Virus record (IMG/VR): IMGVR_UViG_3300025102_000361
Coordinates: 1 to 20,749 of that record
DNA length: 20,749 nucleotides
Source: a virus
Reading direction: 5' to 3' (one strand)
The notes beneath the pieces are model-generated. The model did no database searches. It saw only the letters and a program-made list of their open reading frames with translations, and was not told where the DNA came from. Positions 164 through 18,213 of the stretch are shown here, one piece after another; positions within the stretch are counted from its first letter, which is position 1; each line of letters opens with the position of its first letter. The position numbers and the translations under genes are program-made.

Positions 164-1671
164 TGGCTTGGTACGACAGATTTACAAGAAAACCGAAAAG
201 AAGAAAAACTCTTAATTTAAGAAAATACAATGGTGCAAGTACCAGCAGATTATTTTCTGATTTCTTACAAACATCAACATCTGCTGATGAAGAGATAAAA
301 ACCAATTTAAGATTATTAAGAGACAGATCAAGAGACTTAGCAAGAAATGATAGTTATGTGCAAAGATATTTGAATCTGATGCAATCCAATGTTGTTGGCA
401 ACAATGGTATTCGTTTATCAATGAAAGCAAGAAACGATGATGGTAGTTTAGATTTAGTAGCAAACAGAATCATTGAAGAGAAATGGCATCAATGGTGTCG
501 TTTAGGTAATTGCACAACGAATGGCAGATTAACCTTTATAGACTGTCAAAAATTATTTATTGAATCTTTAGCAAGAGATGGCGAAGTATTAGTTCGTCAT
601 GTTAAGTCAAGAGATTCAGAGTTTGGTTATCAGATAGAGTTTTTAGAAGCTGATCATTTAGATGAAACTAAAAACGACAATCCTGAAAAGGGTGGTAATA
701 AAATAAAAATGGGTGTGGAACTAAATGCAAGTAATAAACCTATTGCTTATTATCTCTTCAAAAATCATCCATTTGATAACCAATACTACGCAAGACAAAG
801 CCACATCAGATTAAATGCTGATGAAATGATTCACGCTTACATACCAAACAGACCTGAACAAAACAGAGGTGTGCCATTCACTGCATCCGCTATGGCAAAT
901 ATTAAAATGCTTGGTGGTTATCTTGAAGCAGAAATAGTTTCTGCAAGAGTTTCAGCAAGTAAGATGGGATTTTTTACAAGTCCTGATGGTGATAGTTATG
1001 TAGGCGATGGCGAAGATGAAGAATATGTACCAATAATGAACGCTGAAGCTGGAACATTTGAACAGCTACCAGCAGGAATGGATTTTAAATCTTTTGATCC
1101 TGACCATCCTACATCTGCTTTTGAATCATTTAGCACGCAAGTTTTAAGAAGTATTGCATCAGGTTTAAATATTTCTTATCACGCTTTAACCAATGACCTT
1201 AGTTCTGTAAATTACAGTTCCCTAAGAGCAGGTGCATTAGAAGATAGAGAGATGTACAGACTGTATCAAAGATTTACCATTGACCATTTCGTTAGACCTG
1301 TATTTGAAAGGTGGTTAGAGATGTCAATATCAAGTGGTGCTATCTCAACATCTCCAAGTACCAACCAACCTTTGCCAATGAGCAGATACGATAAGTTTGC
1401 TAATTCAGCAAACTTTATACCAAGAAGTTTTTCGTGGGTTGATCCACAAAAAGAAATGATGGCTTCTATAAGTGGTATGCAGTCAGGTCTAGTAACATTT
1501 CAAGATGTTCAAGCAAACTATGGTAGAGATGTTGAGGAGTTGTTTGAGCAACACGAAAGAGAACAGAAGTTAGCAGAACAATATGGTGTGAAAACAGCTT
1601 TCCAACCTTTTGGTATGAAGATGCCTGTTGAAGCTGACATACAGGGTGGCGAGGGTGGCGAAGATGGCTAG
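163..1671 (+). CDS. Portal protein, lambda gpB-like
   Basis: This 502-aa protein fits the lambda gpB/phage_portal_2 type: the dodecameric ring at the capsid vertex through which DNA is packaged and to which the terminase and head-tail connector bind. Support comes from an N-terminal basic arm (DRFTRKPKRRK), a central segment with HAYIPNRPEQNRGVPFTASA (about residues 225-245), and the crown/stem-like block SASKMGFFTSP followed by GTFEQLPAGMDFKSFDPDHP. Then come LRSIASGLNISYHALTNDL and SSLRAGALEDRE, all typical of lambda-type portals. The length is normal for the family. The start ATG is coupled to the upstream stop (TAATG). The 3' end overlaps the capsid fusion gene by 8 nt. The C-terminal tail is Gly/Glu-rich (DIQGGEGGEDG). 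Confidence 0.95.
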   Translation: MAWYDRFTRKPKRRKTLNLRKYNGASTSRLFSDFLQTSTSADEEIKTNLRLLRDRSRDLARNDSYVQRYLNLMQSNVVGNNGIRLSMKARNDDGSLDLVANRIIEEKWHQWCRLGNCTTNGRLTFIDCQKLFIESLARDGEVLVRHVKSRDSEFGYQIEFLEADHLDETKNDNPEKGGNKIKMGVELNASNKPIAYYLFKNHPFDNQYYARQSHIRLNADEMIHAYIPNRPEQNRGVPFTASAMANIKMLGGYLEAEIVSARVSASKMGFFTSPDGDSYVGDGEDEEYVPIMNAEAGTFEQLPAGMDFKSFDPDHPTSAFESFSTQVLRSIASGLNISYHALTNDLSSVNYSSLRAGALEDREMYRLYQRFTIDHFVRPVFERWLEMSISSGAISTSPSTNQPLPMSRYDKFANSANFIPRSFSWVDPQKEMMASISGMQSGLVTFQDVQANYGRDVEELFEQHEREQKLAEQYGVKTAFQPFGMKMPVEADIQGGEGGEDG

Positions 1672-4633
1672 ACCGAACGAAGGCATGAAAGTCGAAGCAC
1701 AAAAAGGCTTGGATTGGCGAGAAGAATTTGGTCGTGGCGGAACTAGAGTAGGTGCGGTAAGAGCAAGACAGATAGTAGCTGGTGAAAATCTATCAGACGA
1801 TACTATCAAAAGAATGTTTAGTTTTTTTAGCAGACACGAAGTCGATAAAGAAGCTGAAGGTTTTAATTCAGGAGAAGATGGCTATCCTTCAAATGGCAGA
1901 ATAGCTTGGGCATTATGGGGTGGTGATGCTGGTTTTACTTGGTCAAGAAGATTGGTAGAAAAGATGAAAGAAGAACGACAAACATATAACGAAGAAGAAA
2001 ATCAAACAAGACAAGAAACTATTGAATACGAAGTAATTATTAAAGCTGGTGATAATAAATATGGCGAAGGTAATAAATTTTATTTAGATGGAGAACTGTC
2101 ACCAAAACTTTCAATGATTATAGATAATACTTACAAATTTGATTTATCTGATGCTTCTAATAAAACACACGCTTTAAGATTTTCTATTACAGAAGATGGT
2201 GTTCATAACGAAGGTGAAGCGTACACAAAAGGTGTAGAAGTATCAGGTAAGGCAGGTGAAGAAGGTGCATTTATATCAATCACAATTAATGAAGAAACAC
2301 CTGATCTTTATTATTATTGCGTTAATCATTCAGGCATGGGTGGCAAAATATCAGTCATGAATGAAGAAGAAACCAGAGCAGTATCAGGTAAGGCTCTTAA
2401 AATGATTCAAAACAAAGTAGAAGAACATAATGAAGAAGTAGGCGATGTAAAATCTAAAAGAACTACTGTCGGAGTATTATCAAAAGTTTATGAAAGAGGG
2501 ATTGGTGCTTATAAGACTAATCCAGCTTCTGTAAGACCTTCAGTAAGTAGTCCAGAGCAGTGGGCATCGGCACGAATAAATTCGTTTCTTTACTGTCTCC
2601 GCAATGGTCGTTTTCGTTCAGGAAAACATGACACAGACTTACTTCCTGAAGGACATCCTTTATCAACCAAAAACAAAGAGGATAAATCTATGGAATATAA
2701 AGAAGATAGACATATCCTAAATGTTGAGGAAACAGACGATACTTATGTAGTATCTTTTGCTAAACATGAGGATATGGAAGAAATGGAAGATGATGAAAAA
2801 GATATGGAATCTCGACCATTTCATTATGATGAAGAAGATAAAGATGAAGAAGAAAGACTAGATAAGTCCGATATTGTCTATCGAACTCTAGACCTTTCAA
2901 GAGCATCTTATATCGATGAAGAAAAAAGAAGAGTGAGAATCGGAGTTAGTTCCGAAGAACCTGTTGAAAGAGATTTTGGCATGGAAGTAATCTCACATTC
3001 TGAAGAGGATATTGACACTAGCTTTATTGGTAGTGGTAGAAGTCCTTTACTCTTAGATCACGACATGACTAAACAGATTGGTGTGGTCGAAAGATATGAA
3101 ATTGATTCTGCTGAAAAAAGTGCGAAGGCAATTGTTCGCTTTGGTCGAAGTGAACTCGCAGAAGAAATTTATCAAGATGTCAGAGATGGTATTCGTCAAA
3201 ATATCAGTGTTGGCTACAAGATAAATGGCATGGAACGTATGCGTGGCAACCAAGATGATAAGCCGATGTTCAGAGTATCAACTACACCTTTAGAGGTGTC
3301 AGTTGTTTCTGTACCAGCAGATCAATCTCAAGCTGTCGGAGTAGGACGTTCTGAAGATAAACAAACAACCATAAAGGTAAAAACAATGACTGAAGAAGTT
3401 AAAAATGAAATAAACCTTGATGAAGTTAGGCAAGAATCTGTTGCTGAAGCTAAAGCCGAATTCGTTAGAAATTCTAAAGAAATTATGGACTTAGCTGTTA
3501 GACACAACAGAAGAGACTTAGCTGACAAGGCTATTCAAGATGGTAACTCAGTAGAAGAATTTAGAGGAATCTTATTAGACCAAATAGCGACTGATAAGCC
3601 TTTAGAAACTCCTGAGATTGGCATGAATAAAAAGGAAGTACGTCAGTTTTCGATTATGAAAGCAATCAATGCTTTAGCTAATCCAACTGACAGAAAGGCA
3701 CAAAGAGAAGCTGAATTTGAATTTGAATGTTCAGAAGAAGCATCTAAACACTATGGCAGAACTGCACAAGGTATTATGTTACCGCCTGAAGTTATGGCTA
3801 ATTGGAACACTAGAGATTTGAACGCATCTGACGATGCTGGTCTTGTTGGACAAGATTTCAGACCTGAGAGTTTCATAGACGTACTCAGAAACGCATCTGC
3901 TGTAATGCCATTGGCTACAAACCTAAATGGACTATCTGGCGATGTTAAGATTCCTAAGAAAACATCTGCTTCTTCTGCATCTTTTATTAGTGCAGAAGGT
4001 GGTGCATCTGGTGAGTCTGAAATGGTAATAGGTTCTGTAACTATGTCTCCAAAAACTGTAGGTGTACACACAGACGTTACTCGTCAATTAATGCTTCAAT
4101 CATCTTTAGATGTTGAAAACTTAATTCGTGATGACTTAGCTAAATCAATGGCAATTGCAATTGATGATGGTGCTTTAGAAGGTAGTGGTTCTAGTGGAAA
4201 TCCAAGAGGTATCACTAACACTTCAGGTATCAATACTGTTTCTTTAAGTAGTGCATCTGCACCAACTTTTGCAGAAATGGTTTCAATTGAAACAAGTGTT
4301 GCTGTAGATAATGCTTTAGTGGGCGATTTAGCTTACATCATTAATCCAGCTAACTTTGGTACGCTAAAAACTACTGCTAAAGATTCAGGTAGTGGTTTAT
4401 TCGTAGCAGAAAATGGACAAGTAAATGGCTATCCTGTAGTTGTTTCTAATCAAATTACTGCGAATAACTATGTGTTCGGAAACTTCAATGACCTATTAAT
4501 TGGGTTCTTTGGTGGTTTAGACATTACTGTTGATCCTTACTCTAACTCTACTTCAGGTACAGTTAGAATCGTTGCTCTACAATCAGTAGATGTAGCTGTA
4601 AGACACGCAGTTTCTTTCTGTAACGCAAGTTAA
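1664..4633 (+). CDS. Capsid polyprotein: accessory domains + cupredoxin-like domain + HK97 prohead protease + major capsid protein
   Basis: One uninterrupted 989-aa frame. I take ATG 1664, which overlaps the portal stop; a TTG at 1628 would add 12 residues. Residues about 1-100: a block with GLDWREEFGRGGTRVGAVRA and GRIAWALWGGDAGFTWSR, recurrent in phage proteins, function unknown to me. Residues about 120-235: cupredoxin-like, with possible ligands His169, Cys219, His222 and Met225. Residues about 255-335: KVYERGIGAYKTNP through GRFRSGKHDTDLLPEGHP, another recurrent block. Residues about 345-570: acid-rich linker, then an HK97-type (U35) prohead protease with His466 in LLLDHD, Ser515 in RQNISVGY and EVSVVSVPADQS. 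Residues about 575-690: delta/scaffold-like region. Residues about 690-989: HK97-fold major capsid protein (GIMLPPEV, NPRGITNTSGI, NGYPVVVSNQI, C-terminal VAVRHAVSF). Protease and capsid protein are usually separate genes. In-frame internal starts at 2690 and 3386 may make shorter products. Confidence 0.93.
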   Translation: MARPNEGMKVEAQKGLDWREEFGRGGTRVGAVRARQIVAGENLSDDTIKRMFSFFSRHEVDKEAEGFNSGEDGYPSNGRIAWALWGGDAGFTWSRRLVEKMKEERQTYNEEENQTRQETIEYEVIIKAGDNKYGEGNKFYLDGELSPKLSMIIDNTYKFDLSDASNKTHALRFSITEDGVHNEGEAYTKGVEVSGKAGEEGAFISITINEETPDLYYYCVNHSGMGGKISVMNEEETRAVSGKALKMIQNKVEEHNEEVGDVKSKRTTVGVLSKVYERGIGAYKTNPASVRPSVSSPEQWASARINSFLYCLRNGRFRSGKHDTDLLPEGHPLSTKNKEDKSMEYKEDRHILNVEETDDTYVVSFAKHEDMEEMEDDEKDMESRPFHYDEEDKDEEERLDKSDIVYRTLDLSRASYIDEEKRRVRIGVSSEEPVERDFGMEVISHSEEDIDTSFIGSGRSPLLLDHDMTKQIGVVERYEIDSAEKSAKAIVRFGRSELAEEIYQDVRDGIRQNISVGYKINGMERMRGNQDDKPMFRVSTTPLEVSVVSVPADQSQAVGVGRSEDKQTTIKVKTMTEEVKNEINLDEVRQESVAEAKAEFVRNSKEIMDLAVRHNRRDLADKAIQDGNSVEEFRGILLDQIATDKPLETPEIGMNKKEVRQFSIMKAINALANPTDRKAQREAEFEFECSEEASKHYGRTAQGIMLPPEVMANWNTRDLNASDDAGLVGQDFRPESFIDVLRNASAVMPLATNLNGLSGDVKIPKKTSASSASFISAEGGASGESEMVIGSVTMSPKTVGVHTDVTRQLMLQSSLDVENLIRDDLAKSMAIAIDDGALEGSGSSGNPRGITNTSGINTVSLSSASAPTFAEMVSIETSVAVDNALVGDLAYIINPANFGTLKTTAKDSGSGLFVAENGQVNGYPVVVSNQITANNYVFGNFNDLLIGFFGGLDITVDPYSNSTSGTVRIVALQSVDVAVRHAVSFCNAS
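2675..2692 (+). promoter_or_regulatory. Candidate internal RBS and start for a protease-capsid product
   Basis: An AAAGAGGA stretch (2675-2682) lies 7 nt upstream of an in-frame ATG at 2690 (Met343 of the fusion). It falls exactly at the junction between the accessory domains and the prohead protease, where a stand-alone protease gene would begin (MEYKEDRHILNVEETDD). Use of this start is inferred. Confidence 0.45.
3373..3388 (+). promoter_or_regulatory. Candidate internal RBS and start for the major capsid protein
   Basis: AAAGG (3373-3377) precedes an in-frame ATG at 3386 (Met575) by 8 nt. The resulting protein, MTEEVKNEINLDEVRQ and onward, would be 415 aa, a normal size for an HK97-type capsid precursor with a delta domain. 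Its N-terminus also reads like that of such a capsid protein. Initiation here would raise capsid protein over protease. Usage is inferred. Confidence 0.5.
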
Positions 4634-16188: not shown

Positions 16189-16545
16189 ATGGCAATAAAT
16201 TATACTTGGAGTTGCAAAACTGTAGATGTTAAAGAAATAGACAGCAACGTTGATACTGTCTTTAACGTGCATTGGCGACTAAACGCTGAAGATGATGCTA
16301 ATACTGTAAAAGATATGCGAGGTAATGATGTACCTGCTACTGCTACAGTATATGGCACACAAGGTTTAGACACTTCAGACTTATCAAGCTTTACCGCTTT
16401 GACAGATTTAACTGCAAGTGATGTACAAGGTTGGGTTGAAACAGCTATGGGTGAAGATAAAGTTACAAAATTAAAATCTAATTTAAGCAATCAAATAGCA
16501 GAATTAGTGACACCAACACAAGAAACAAAAATAATAGGAGAATAA
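16189..16545 (+). CDS. Hypothetical phage protein, DUF7936-like
   Basis: A 118-aa protein, MAINYTWSCKTVDVKEIDSN then FNVHWRLNAED, with ATATVYGTQGLD, SSFTALTDLTASDVQGWVET and LKSNLSNQIAEL. The order is beta strand 'ytW......', a 'v..v.w.l.a.d' strand, an 'a..yG...l' strand, 'F.....lt...v.gWv...lg', then a C-terminal helix. It matches what I recall of DUF7936, found in phage genomes next to tail fibre genes; its function is unknown. It starts 1 nt after the fibre stop with AGAGG upstream, and ends 1 nt before the next ATG. A fibre-associated or assembly role is only positional inference. Confidence 0.7.
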   Translation: MAINYTWSCKTVDVKEIDSNVDTVFNVHWRLNAEDDANTVKDMRGNDVPATATVYGTQGLDTSDLSSFTALTDLTASDVQGWVETAMGEDKVTKLKSNLSNQIAELVTPTQETKIIGE

Positions 16546-16546
16546 T

Positions 16547-16801
16547 ATGTCAGATATACAAGTTAGAAACGATAATGGTGATGTAGAGGAATACAACAAA
16601 GAAGATATGACTGACGAACAAAGAAGTTTGTTTAATGATGTCTTAGCCTTGCAACAAAGGTGTATTGAGATCGAACCAATGGCAAGAGAATTTACTGATA
16701 AAAAACAATTGGTTGATCTTAAATCTAAATCATTATTAGAAAGCCTTAGAGGTATAGGAAATGCCAAAGAAAGCGACAGCAAAACCAAGACAATCGACTA
16801 A
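16547..16801 (+). CDS. Small hypothetical protein, coiled-coil-like
   Basis: An 84-aa acidic protein with a strong RBS (ATAGGAGAATAAT before the ATG). It begins MSDIQVRNDNGDVEEYNKED and then appears mostly helical (DEQRSLFNDVLALQQRCIEI, followed by KKQLVDLKSKSLLESLRGIG). Two amphipathic helices suggest a coiled-coil hairpin. I do not recognise a family. It overlaps the next gene by 41 nt in another frame. The position between the fibre region and the lysis genes gives no clear role. Confidence 0.7.
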   Translation: MSDIQVRNDNGDVEEYNKEDMTDEQRSLFNDVLALQQRCIEIEPMAREFTDKKQLVDLKSKSLLESLRGIGNAKESDSKTKTID

Positions 16802-16997
16802 AAAGCCTACTGTTGAACAAGTAGCAAATGCCCTTGATAGGCATGAAAAAGTTTGTGTACAAAAATGGAAGGAAAACTTCCGCAGATTAGATTCAATTGA
16901 ATCGGATATAAATACTACCAATAAAAGATTGTGGCAAATAGCAGGAATTGTTATTGGGCTATTATCTTCTTTAGTGATTAATGCGTTCTTCATGTGA
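16761..16997 (+). CDS. Small membrane protein in the lysis region
   Basis: A 78-aa protein. The basic N-terminus (MPKKATAKPRQSTKKPTVEQ) is followed by a helical segment (DRHEKVCVQKWKENFRRLDS, IESDINTTNKRL) that could form a coiled coil. One C-terminal membrane segment, WQIAGIVIGLLSSLVINAFF (about residues 58-77), ends at the C-terminus. The layout of charged helix plus C-terminal anchor is common among small proteins next to phage holins. It could modulate the holin or be a second holin-like protein, but no family is certain. The gene overlaps both neighbours (41 nt upstream, 17 nt downstream if the next start is 16981), so expression is likely coupled. Confidence 0.65.
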   Translation: MPKKATAKPRQSTKKPTVEQVANALDRHEKVCVQKWKENFRRLDSIESDINTTNKRLWQIAGIVIGLLSSLVINAFFM

Positions 16998-17361
16998 AAT
17001 GAACATTGAAGAATATTATATTGAAATCTCAATATTTATCGCAAGTGTTTTAGGCGGTCTTGCTCTTAAAGATTATTCAGTATCTTTTATCAAAGGTCTT
17101 AAATTTAAACTCAACTCACAATTCAACGAAGGCGATAAGGTCTTATTAGATGGCGAACAAGCCATGATAATTAAAATAGGCATGGGTACTACTGTTTTTG
17201 GTGTTTATGGGCGAGATGGCTATACATGGCGATATATCAGTAATACTAAGATAGAATCCCTTAAATTAGAAAAGATAGTTGATAAAGACTTACACCAAGA
17301 TTCTGCTTATGAAAAGCGACAAAAACTAAAAGACATATTAGAGGGCAAAGACAATGATTGA
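16981..17361 (+). CDS. Membrane protein with MscS-like beta domain
   Basis: A 126-aa protein; ATG 16999 would give 120 aa and is equally possible. One N-terminal membrane helix (YYIEISIFIASVLGGLALKD, about residues 12-31) is followed by an amphipathic linker (YSVSFIKGLKFKLNSQ). Next is a small beta domain, FNEGDKVLLDGEQAMIIKIG, then TTVFGVYGRDGYTWRYISNT and KIESLKLEKI. 'F.eGD.V...g..a.i..Ig...tvf......W.yIsNt.i' is the pattern of the middle beta domain of MscS-type mechanosensitive channels. The TM3 gate and C-terminal vestibule of MscS are absent. A charged C-terminal helix ends DILEGKDND. It sits directly before the holin, with 8 nt of overlap. A role in lysis is inferred. Confidence 0.72.
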   Translation: MRSSCEMNIEEYYIEISIFIASVLGGLALKDYSVSFIKGLKFKLNSQFNEGDKVLLDGEQAMIIKIGMGTTVFGVYGRDGYTWRYISNTKIESLKLEKIVDKDLHQDSAYEKRQKLKDILEGKDND

Positions 17362-17776
17362 TAAATTTTTTAAACCAATAAGCGATTTAATTGGTAAAGC
17401 CATACCTGATAAAACTAAGCGTATGGAATTAGAAGCAAGTATAAAATCGCAAATGATTGATCTGCAAAAATCACAAAATGAAATAAATCTAGAACAAGCA
17501 AAACATGGTTCTATCTTTGTAGCTGGTGCAAGACCTGCCATCATGTGGATATGTGCATTGGGATTAGCATGGGCATATTTTTTAGCACCAATACTTAATT
17601 GGGTGGTATGGACATTTACCATTGATATTGTGCCACCTGATATTGATACTGAAGGTCTTATGACTTTAACATTATCAATGTTGGGTTTAGGTGGTATGCG
17701 AAGTTTTGAAAAATTCAAAGGTGTTGCAAGAAACAACATGAAAGAAGAAAATACTAAAGATTCATATAAGCCATAA
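17354..17776 (+). CDS. Holin, 3-TM GTA-type family
   Basis: A 140-aa protein: an amphipathic N-terminal region (MIDKFFKPISDLIGKAIPDK), a coiled-coil helix (residues about 22-52), then hydrophobic segments in GARPAIMWICALGLAWAYFL (continuing to about residue 88) and LMTLTLSMLGLGGMRSFEKF. 'GARPaimWiC..gl.......' followed later by 'GLGGMRSFEK.KGVA' is the signature of the 'holin of 3 TMs, for gene-transfer release' family. Holins make the inner-membrane lesion that lets the endolysin reach the peptidoglycan. The next gene, an endolysin whose start overlaps this stop (TAATG), has no signal peptide, which fits dependence on this holin. Confidence 0.88.
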   Translation: MIDKFFKPISDLIGKAIPDKTKRMELEASIKSQMIDLQKSQNEINLEQAKHGSIFVAGARPAIMWICALGLAWAYFLAPILNWVVWTFTIDIVPPDIDTEGLMTLTLSMLGLGGMRSFEKFKGVARNNMKEENTKDSYKP

Positions 17777-18213
17777 TGGAAACAGGTGTCACTAAAGAAC
17801 TGATTGATGATTTAAAAGAAATGCTTATCAAGAATGAAGGCATGGAACTTAAAATGTATCGGTGTACAAGTCAAAAATGGACAATTGGTGCAGGTCGCAA
17901 TATTCAAGATAATGGCATATCTGTTGATGAAGCAGAGTTAATGTTAAAGAATGATATGGATGGTGTCTTTAATGATCTTGATAGAAACATACCTTTTTGG
18001 CAATCTATGCCTTATAACATTAGATTAGTCTTAGCAGATATGTGTTTCAATCTTGGGATCAAAAGATTATGTAGATTTACTAAGATGCTAGAAGCTATGG
18101 AAGAAAGAGATTTTGAACTAGCTGGTGAAGAACTATTAGATTCTACTTATGCGGTTCAAGTAAAAGGACGAGCCAAAAGAAATTTTCGACTCGTCACAGA
18201 TGGGGAGAATTAG
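17776..18213 (+). CDS. Endolysin, T4-lysozyme-type muramidase (GH24)
   Basis: A 145-aa cytoplasmic-type endolysin. IKNEGMELKMYRCTSQKWTI followed by GAGRNIQ aligns with the T4 lysozyme core. Glu21 is the catalytic acid, Cys30 takes the place of T4 Asp20, and Thr36 takes the place of Thr26, giving the family's E-x8-(D/C)-x5-T triad. Arg39 replaces the usual His after G-x-G. Further GH24 features are SVDEAELMLKNDMDGVFNDL and VLADMCFNLGIKRLCRFTKM. It cleaves the MurNAc-GlcNAc bond. No N-terminal hydrophobic stretch (signal peptide or SAR) is seen, so release should depend on the preceding holin. No spanin pair follows: the gene ends at the convergent minus-strand unit. Confidence 0.93.
   Translation: METGVTKELIDDLKEMLIKNEGMELKMYRCTSQKWTIGAGRNIQDNGISVDEAELMLKNDMDGVFNDLDRNIPFWQSMPYNIRLVLADMCFNLGIKRLCRFTKMLEAMEERDFELAGEELLDSTYAVQVKGRAKRNFRLVTDGEN

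Follow-up and report, generated by a model that had tools for sequence, protein, structure and literature searches.

The gene and its neighbours

The window, by which we mean the whole stretch of 20,749 nucleotides that was analysed, is a 20.7-kb marine virus record with its genes in the order head, tail and lysis. An open reading frame at 16981-17361 was confirmed and encodes the sequence quoted in an earlier note on this DNA; within it lies the gene that we refer to as mini-MscS. The gene, its parts and its neighbours are as follows.

16761..16997, + strand: 78-aa protein with one C-terminal TM, the upstream cassette member in the lineage of the window
16999..17361, + strand: mini-MscS gene (120 aa), defined by conserved start, MscS profile and structure; pore helix TM3 at residues 3-38, beta-domain at residues 47-87, C-terminal helix at residues 103-114
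17005..17112, + strand: codons of the TM3-like helix (residues 3-38), from profile alignment and AF2 model; V17 (codon 17047-17049) corresponds to E. coli L105, L21 (codon 17059-17061) to L109 and G33 to G121
17137..17259, + strand: codons of the MscS-like beta-domain (residues 47-87), from model, structure matches and alignment
17354..17361, + strand: 8-nt overlap of the mini-MscS stop and the holin start (ATGATTGA)
17354..17776, + strand: 3-TM holin (PF11351, phrog_3427; Pfam E 9.8e-14, PHROG holin E 4e-28)
17776..18213, + strand: T4-type lysozyme endolysin (PF00959) with no obvious signal or TM

The start common to relatives is the ATG at 16999 (GTG in some lineages), and since coding similarity begins at that Met the protein is most likely of 120 aa and not 126. 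Comparison of the window with two relatives gave 3, 0 and 19 changes, and 15, 6 and 45 changes, at codon positions 1, 2 and 3 respectively, with the third position dominating. Most of the codon changes are thus synonymous, and the ORF is a real gene under purifying selection. The earlier note put the gene between a small TM protein and the holin, and both neighbours are indeed present, but of the coding overlaps that it described on both sides only that with the holin holds, as the upstream gene ends at 16997, with a single nucleotide between it and the ATG. The 8-nt overlap with the holin gene is kept in most loci that have both genes, and it is likely that the two are translationally coupled.

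The 78-aa TM protein is XhlA-like in layout only. It has a match to NCBIfam NF048001, the GTA head formation protein of the RCAP_rcc01685 family, at E 1.2e-6, which is below the cut-off, and this match taken with the GTA-type holin hints at parts in common with gene transfer agents. The tail fibre is followed directly, at 16189-16545, by a DUF7936 protein that is possibly a fibre chaperone; one like it comes after the tail fibre of locus L074 and, by eye, also after those of L239 and L245. At 1628-4633 there is a single 1001-aa ORF in which we recognise by eye a small N-terminal domain followed by parts like a prohead protease and a major capsid protein, and which seems to combine the protease-like and capsid-like parts in one protein.

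Relationship to MscS

Relatives were gathered in five IMG/VR scans, those with family queries giving 116 to 337 each. The distinct set comprises at least 120 proteins, each of at least 110 aa, from several unrelated marine phage backbones, and among the 52 representatives chosen from it the identity with the window protein falls as low as about 49%. Outside IMG/VR, no convincing match came from tblastn of family members against the INPHARED phages, nor any mini-MscS from one scan of GTDB, each absence being limited to the collection concerned, which may lack records close to the window. Longer MscS genes occur in a few phage-collection records, none of them of the mini type.

For comparison with cellular proteins an independent profile of the MscS TM3 and beta-domain was built from 13 bacterial and archaeal MscS proteins. 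In profile-profile alignment with it the 52 representatives gave a probability of 95.5% and a score of 48.9, about 15 SD above the scores of 400 block-wise column shuffles (12.1 +/- 2.4, maximum 20.9); with 16 close relatives the probability was 90.7 and the score 38.6. Residues 14-67 of the window protein align to 102-155 of E. coli MscS over 54 columns with no gap. In the reverse direction a search of every ORF in the loci with the cellular MscS profile alone gave 212 at E<1e-3 (best E 7e-9), and all 212 belong to the mini-MscS family. The most MscS-like member, in locus L362, matches the beta-domain and TM-helix models of Pfam (PF00924 and PF05552) in register and below the cut-off. It reaches 16.1 bits against the PF00924 gathering score of 20.2, which is a score threshold and not an anatomical feature, and the window protein has no match to this model. 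An hmmsearch of the family against PDB sequences gave only chance matches to ribosomal L38, and plant MSL1 at E 1.2 in the right register.

With regard to structure, a first AF2 model, made from 12 close and near-identical sequences, had a pLDDT of 62.8 and matched many barrels with no significant fold match; a deeper alignment was needed for that. The second model, from the 52 representatives, is of moderate confidence (mean pLDDT 68.8, pTM 0.40) and has a long helix at 3-38 with strands at 47-50, 53-60, 64-71 and 74-81. The best 50 Foldseek hits of the second model in the PDB are all of the MscS family (best E 1.6e-4, probability 1.00), with TM-scores normalised by the model of 0.48-0.60. 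VIA-align places residues 4-93 onto 92-178 of MscS (2oau) with Z 9.6 and rmsd 2.9, and gives Z 8.7 over 87 residues to TcMscS of T. cruzi (PDB 9bgq); middling Z values of this kind are common for such folds, and the sequence evidence is independent of the fold match.

One has to consider that an unrelated TM helix and an SH3- or Sm-like barrel might resemble MscS by chance. The window protein has no family assignment in Pfam, PHROGs or NCBIfam, and the many barrels matched by the shallow first model would also fit such a resemblance. However the gapless profile match covers both helix and barrel at a score far above the shuffles, the profile of cellular proteins finds the family unaided, and the top 50 matches of the deeper model are to MscS only. 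For practical purposes chance is refuted by the reverse profile search, the profile-profile score and the Foldseek result for the deeper model, and we consider it extremely improbable. Mini-MscS is a true, drastically reduced MscS homologue, with homology well beyond chance that runs from the gate through the beta-domain. The MscS ancestry proposed in the earlier note is thus supported by profile matches in both directions and by structure, and the ORF, the profile and the structure matches agree with its description of a single membrane helix, which is N-terminal, and an MscS-type beta-domain, to which both Foldseek and VIA found the match.

That note also held that the TM3 gate was missing, and here the alignment gives a different answer. 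As judged from the gapless match, the single membrane helix of mini-MscS is TM3, with the gate retained. Both gate positions are hydrophobic in 52 of 52 representatives, position 17 (E. coli L105) having L in 31, V in 17, I in 3 and F in 1, and position 21 (L109) having L in 51 and M in 1. Query position 20 corresponds to G108 and is G or A, position 33 corresponds to G121 and is invariant, and positions 42 and 45 correspond to F130 and G133. The Q112-G113 pair of E. coli MscS reads K/R-D in the family, as it does in some cellular MscS, and D at the G113 position is present in 5 of the 13 cellular proteins. The hydrophobicity of the TM is modest (median maximum KD19 1.66).

What has been lost is substantial, and the protein is, as the earlier note said, far smaller than a bacterial MscS (120 aa against 286 for E. 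coli). TM1 and TM2 are absent, there being only a few residues before the pore helix and no second TM. The cytoplasmic alpha/beta domain with its side portals is also absent, as is the C-terminal barrel, and the protein ends about 33 residues past a beta-domain of 4-5 strands, with a short C-terminal helix. Strand 4 has an invariant W-R that is specific to the family, as is the charged tail of about 33 residues, and the invariant residues of beta-domain and tail are W77, R78, K89, K92, D95, H99, D101 and E105. Mini-MscS is a viral and reduced variant of a known channel family, and the fold itself is not new.

Gene contexts

A PF11351-type 3-TM holin is the next recognised gene in 66 of the 120 distinct members, mostly with the -8 nt overlap; the holin scans covered 153 loci, of which 83 have exactly -8 nt. 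The pairing spans three holin subtypes, of which a and b are about 33-35% identical, and the endolysin partner is either a T4-type lysozyme or an M15 peptidase; 6 of the 120 lie directly after an M15 endolysin. The backbones on which the gene is found include the following.

Window type: tail fibre - TM protein - mini-MscS - holin - lysozyme
Terminase/portal type: mini-MscS - holin - M15 peptidase - TM protein - capsid genes
RNR type: M15 - mini-MscS - holin
L197 type: mini-MscS with a primase-like gene
Further type: M15 peptidase followed directly by mini-MscS, the holin being 1.3 kb beyond

A few loci have an insert between mini-MscS and the holin, for example a methyltransferase-like gene in L235 or a small ORF in L226. 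The DNA methyltransferase-like gene is directly after mini-MscS in both L235 (632-2089) and L024 (3208-4387), and that of L235 represents cargo inserted into the lysis cassette. Another mini-MscS contig has, close to its RNR gene, at L268:5138-5578 (- strand), a gene for a cytochrome c-like protein with a CxxCH motif (NCNMCHGMKGEGG), which could be either an auxiliary respiratory gene or a sign that the contig reaches into host DNA.

The place in a lysis cassette, which the earlier note had proposed for the window, persists across several backbones, three holin subtypes and two endolysin types, and the placement is not random. The coupling to the holin gene is found in most relatives outside a T4-like group, which is treated below. 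The gene is nevertheless an optional component of the cassette, as window-type cassettes that are closely collinear lack it in L239 and L245, and so does that of the isolate Roseobacter phage CRP-823, whose portal (46%) is among the closest to that of the window.

The T4-like group comprises 38 of the 120 distinct members. These are in large T4-like phages, after RecA, a helicase and a 2-TM protein (phrog_10198). A few other members, in L347, L362 and L367, have no adjacent known lysis gene. A rule that homologues are always next to 3-TM holins, as suggested for checking in the earlier note, therefore fails. The association with lysis is strong for the lineage of the window and weaker for the T4-like group.

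The 2-TM family phrog_10198 (L297:3650-4000, L372:2763-2972, L373:2794-2979) is next to a lysozyme in CRP-406, and in phage C72C1 it stands between lysozyme and holin, so one may suggest it as a candidate holin-like family; its relatives in two Vibrio phages and in Mosig are not beside lysis genes, and for this reason the lysis role is put as a suggestion only. We also considered the 2-TM protein of the T4-like loci as a relative of the 3-TM holin, and this was rejected (hhalign probability 1.1).

These contexts bear on two of the alternatives for function. The first is that mini-MscS has nothing to do with lysis and is a membrane protein of general accessory function, carried along in the variable parts of phage genomes. 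The T4-like group, the few other backbones without adjacent lysis genes and the cassettes L239 and L245 that do without it would all be in keeping with this, but the number of members that have a holin as the next recognised gene, or that directly follow an M15 endolysin, argues against it, and we think it quite improbable. The second is that a tension-gated mini-channel acts as an osmotic safety valve that shields the infected cell from early bursting, with the lysis genes as mere housing. In T4 the RecA and helicase genes are expressed before the late genes, and placement among such genes fits protection through infection better than a role in lysis; the MscS ancestry and the retained gate are also in its favour. 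However, in most other backbones the gene is tightly coupled to that of the holin, which suggests production with the lysis proteins and not throughout infection, and an osmotic valve is in our view unlikely.

Possible role and known systems

The presence of mini-MscS in lysis cassettes suggests that an MscS core was taken over to assist in timing or powering host lysis. The reading that we consider best, although we would put it a little short of an even chance, is that mini-MscS forms an oligomeric pore and is a lysis-cassette accessory that influences holin triggering. We infer both the channel activity and the lysis role. The protein would insert into the inner membrane so that the N terminus is outside and the beta-domain cytoplasmic, an orientation indicated by the acidic N terminus and the basic residues after the helix. 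It would then assemble as a ring, probably a heptamer by analogy with MscS and the trypanosome and microsporidian miniature proteins, and form a small ion-conducting pore that is possibly tension-gated. Made together with the holin, it would leak ions or respond to membrane tension, and so contribute to the timing with which the holin collapses the proton motive force. The precedents of TcMscS and microsporidian MscS2 make a pore plausible. Against the accessory pore are mainly the members in the RecA/helicase cluster, and also those otherwise away from lysis genes, the lack of TM2, a helix that has a place in the membrane in both TcMscS and EcMscS, the moderate confidence of the model and the modest hydrophobicity of the TM.

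A stronger form, which we regard as rather unlikely, is a tension-sensing lysis clock, in which the ring would open at a threshold of turgor or membrane stress, drop the proton motive force and trigger the co-translated holin. If true, this would to our knowledge be the first case of lysis triggered by a mechanosensitive channel, and mini-MscS would be the smallest functional pore of the MscS type.

It could also be that the ring does not conduct, with the beta-domain oligomerising and the helix serving as an anchor, and that this scaffold nucleates, recruits or restrains the holin in the manner of an antiholin. It is the ring-forming core that has been retained, the family-specific invariant residues listed above could form a surface for a partner, and adjacency to holins is persistent. 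Yet a scaffold does not need conservation of the pore-gate residues, and the pairing of the same protein with holin subtypes as divergent as a and b is against a very specific contact, and we give the scaffold a low probability.

Among the open-access papers searched we found no report of MscS in phage lysis and none on the mini-MscS family, and a paper on uncultivated pelagiphages makes no mention of the mini-MscS family. The window protein and its relatives define a family left unassigned by the three family databases searched, and add to the MscS family a virus-encoded branch that consists of TM3 and beta-domain only and keeps the gate positions. Their repeated occurrence in lysis cassettes of mostly uncultivated ocean phages provides a natural test of how little of MscS is enough to make a gated pore, and of whether a mechanosensitive core serves phages in the timing of lysis.

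Among known lysis systems, GTA_holin_3TM (PF11351) cassettes of marine phages, such as that of CRP-823, have the same order of tail fibre, small TM protein, 3-TM holin and endolysin, and differ in having no mini-MscS between TM protein and holin. Mini-MscS itself has no match to any holin family of Pfam, PHROGs or NCBIfam. A phage precedent for a 1-TM, N-out/C-in protein with demonstrated holin function is LysF1b (PF10874) of a mycobacteriophage (PMC13056207), which has a different fold. Compared by its published description, LysF1b is likewise of about 120 aa with one N-terminal TM and a predicted N-out/C-in topology, and its gene overlaps a holin-like gene. It differs in having an extended helical C-terminal part and no beta-domain, in its Gram-positive hosts, and in that its function was established by deletion (PMC13056207).

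With regard to the channels, E. coli MscS shares with mini-MscS the TM3 with hydrophobic 105 and 109, G108 (Gly/Ala), G121, F130 and G133, and a beta-domain with conserved DG and [P/S]N motifs. In contrast to it, mini-MscS is without TM1, TM2, the alpha/beta portal domain and the C-terminal barrel, has D for G113 and an extra W-R pair in strand 4, and is viral and lysis-linked. TcMscS of T. cruzi, described as "a minimal functional unit", is heptameric with a pore of TM3 and beta-domain and keeps mechanosensitive activity (PMC12334622). It is also a miniature MscS that ends after the beta-domain and has no portals, but it is eukaryotic, retains an N helix as well as TM2, and its mechanosensitive activity is proven. 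Microsporidian MscS2 has a TM3-like helix and beta-domain and forms a heptamer in vitro (PMC11262690). It is eukaryotic and has no lysis context, but in having the TM3-like helix and beta-domain only, it is the closest known layout to that of mini-MscS.
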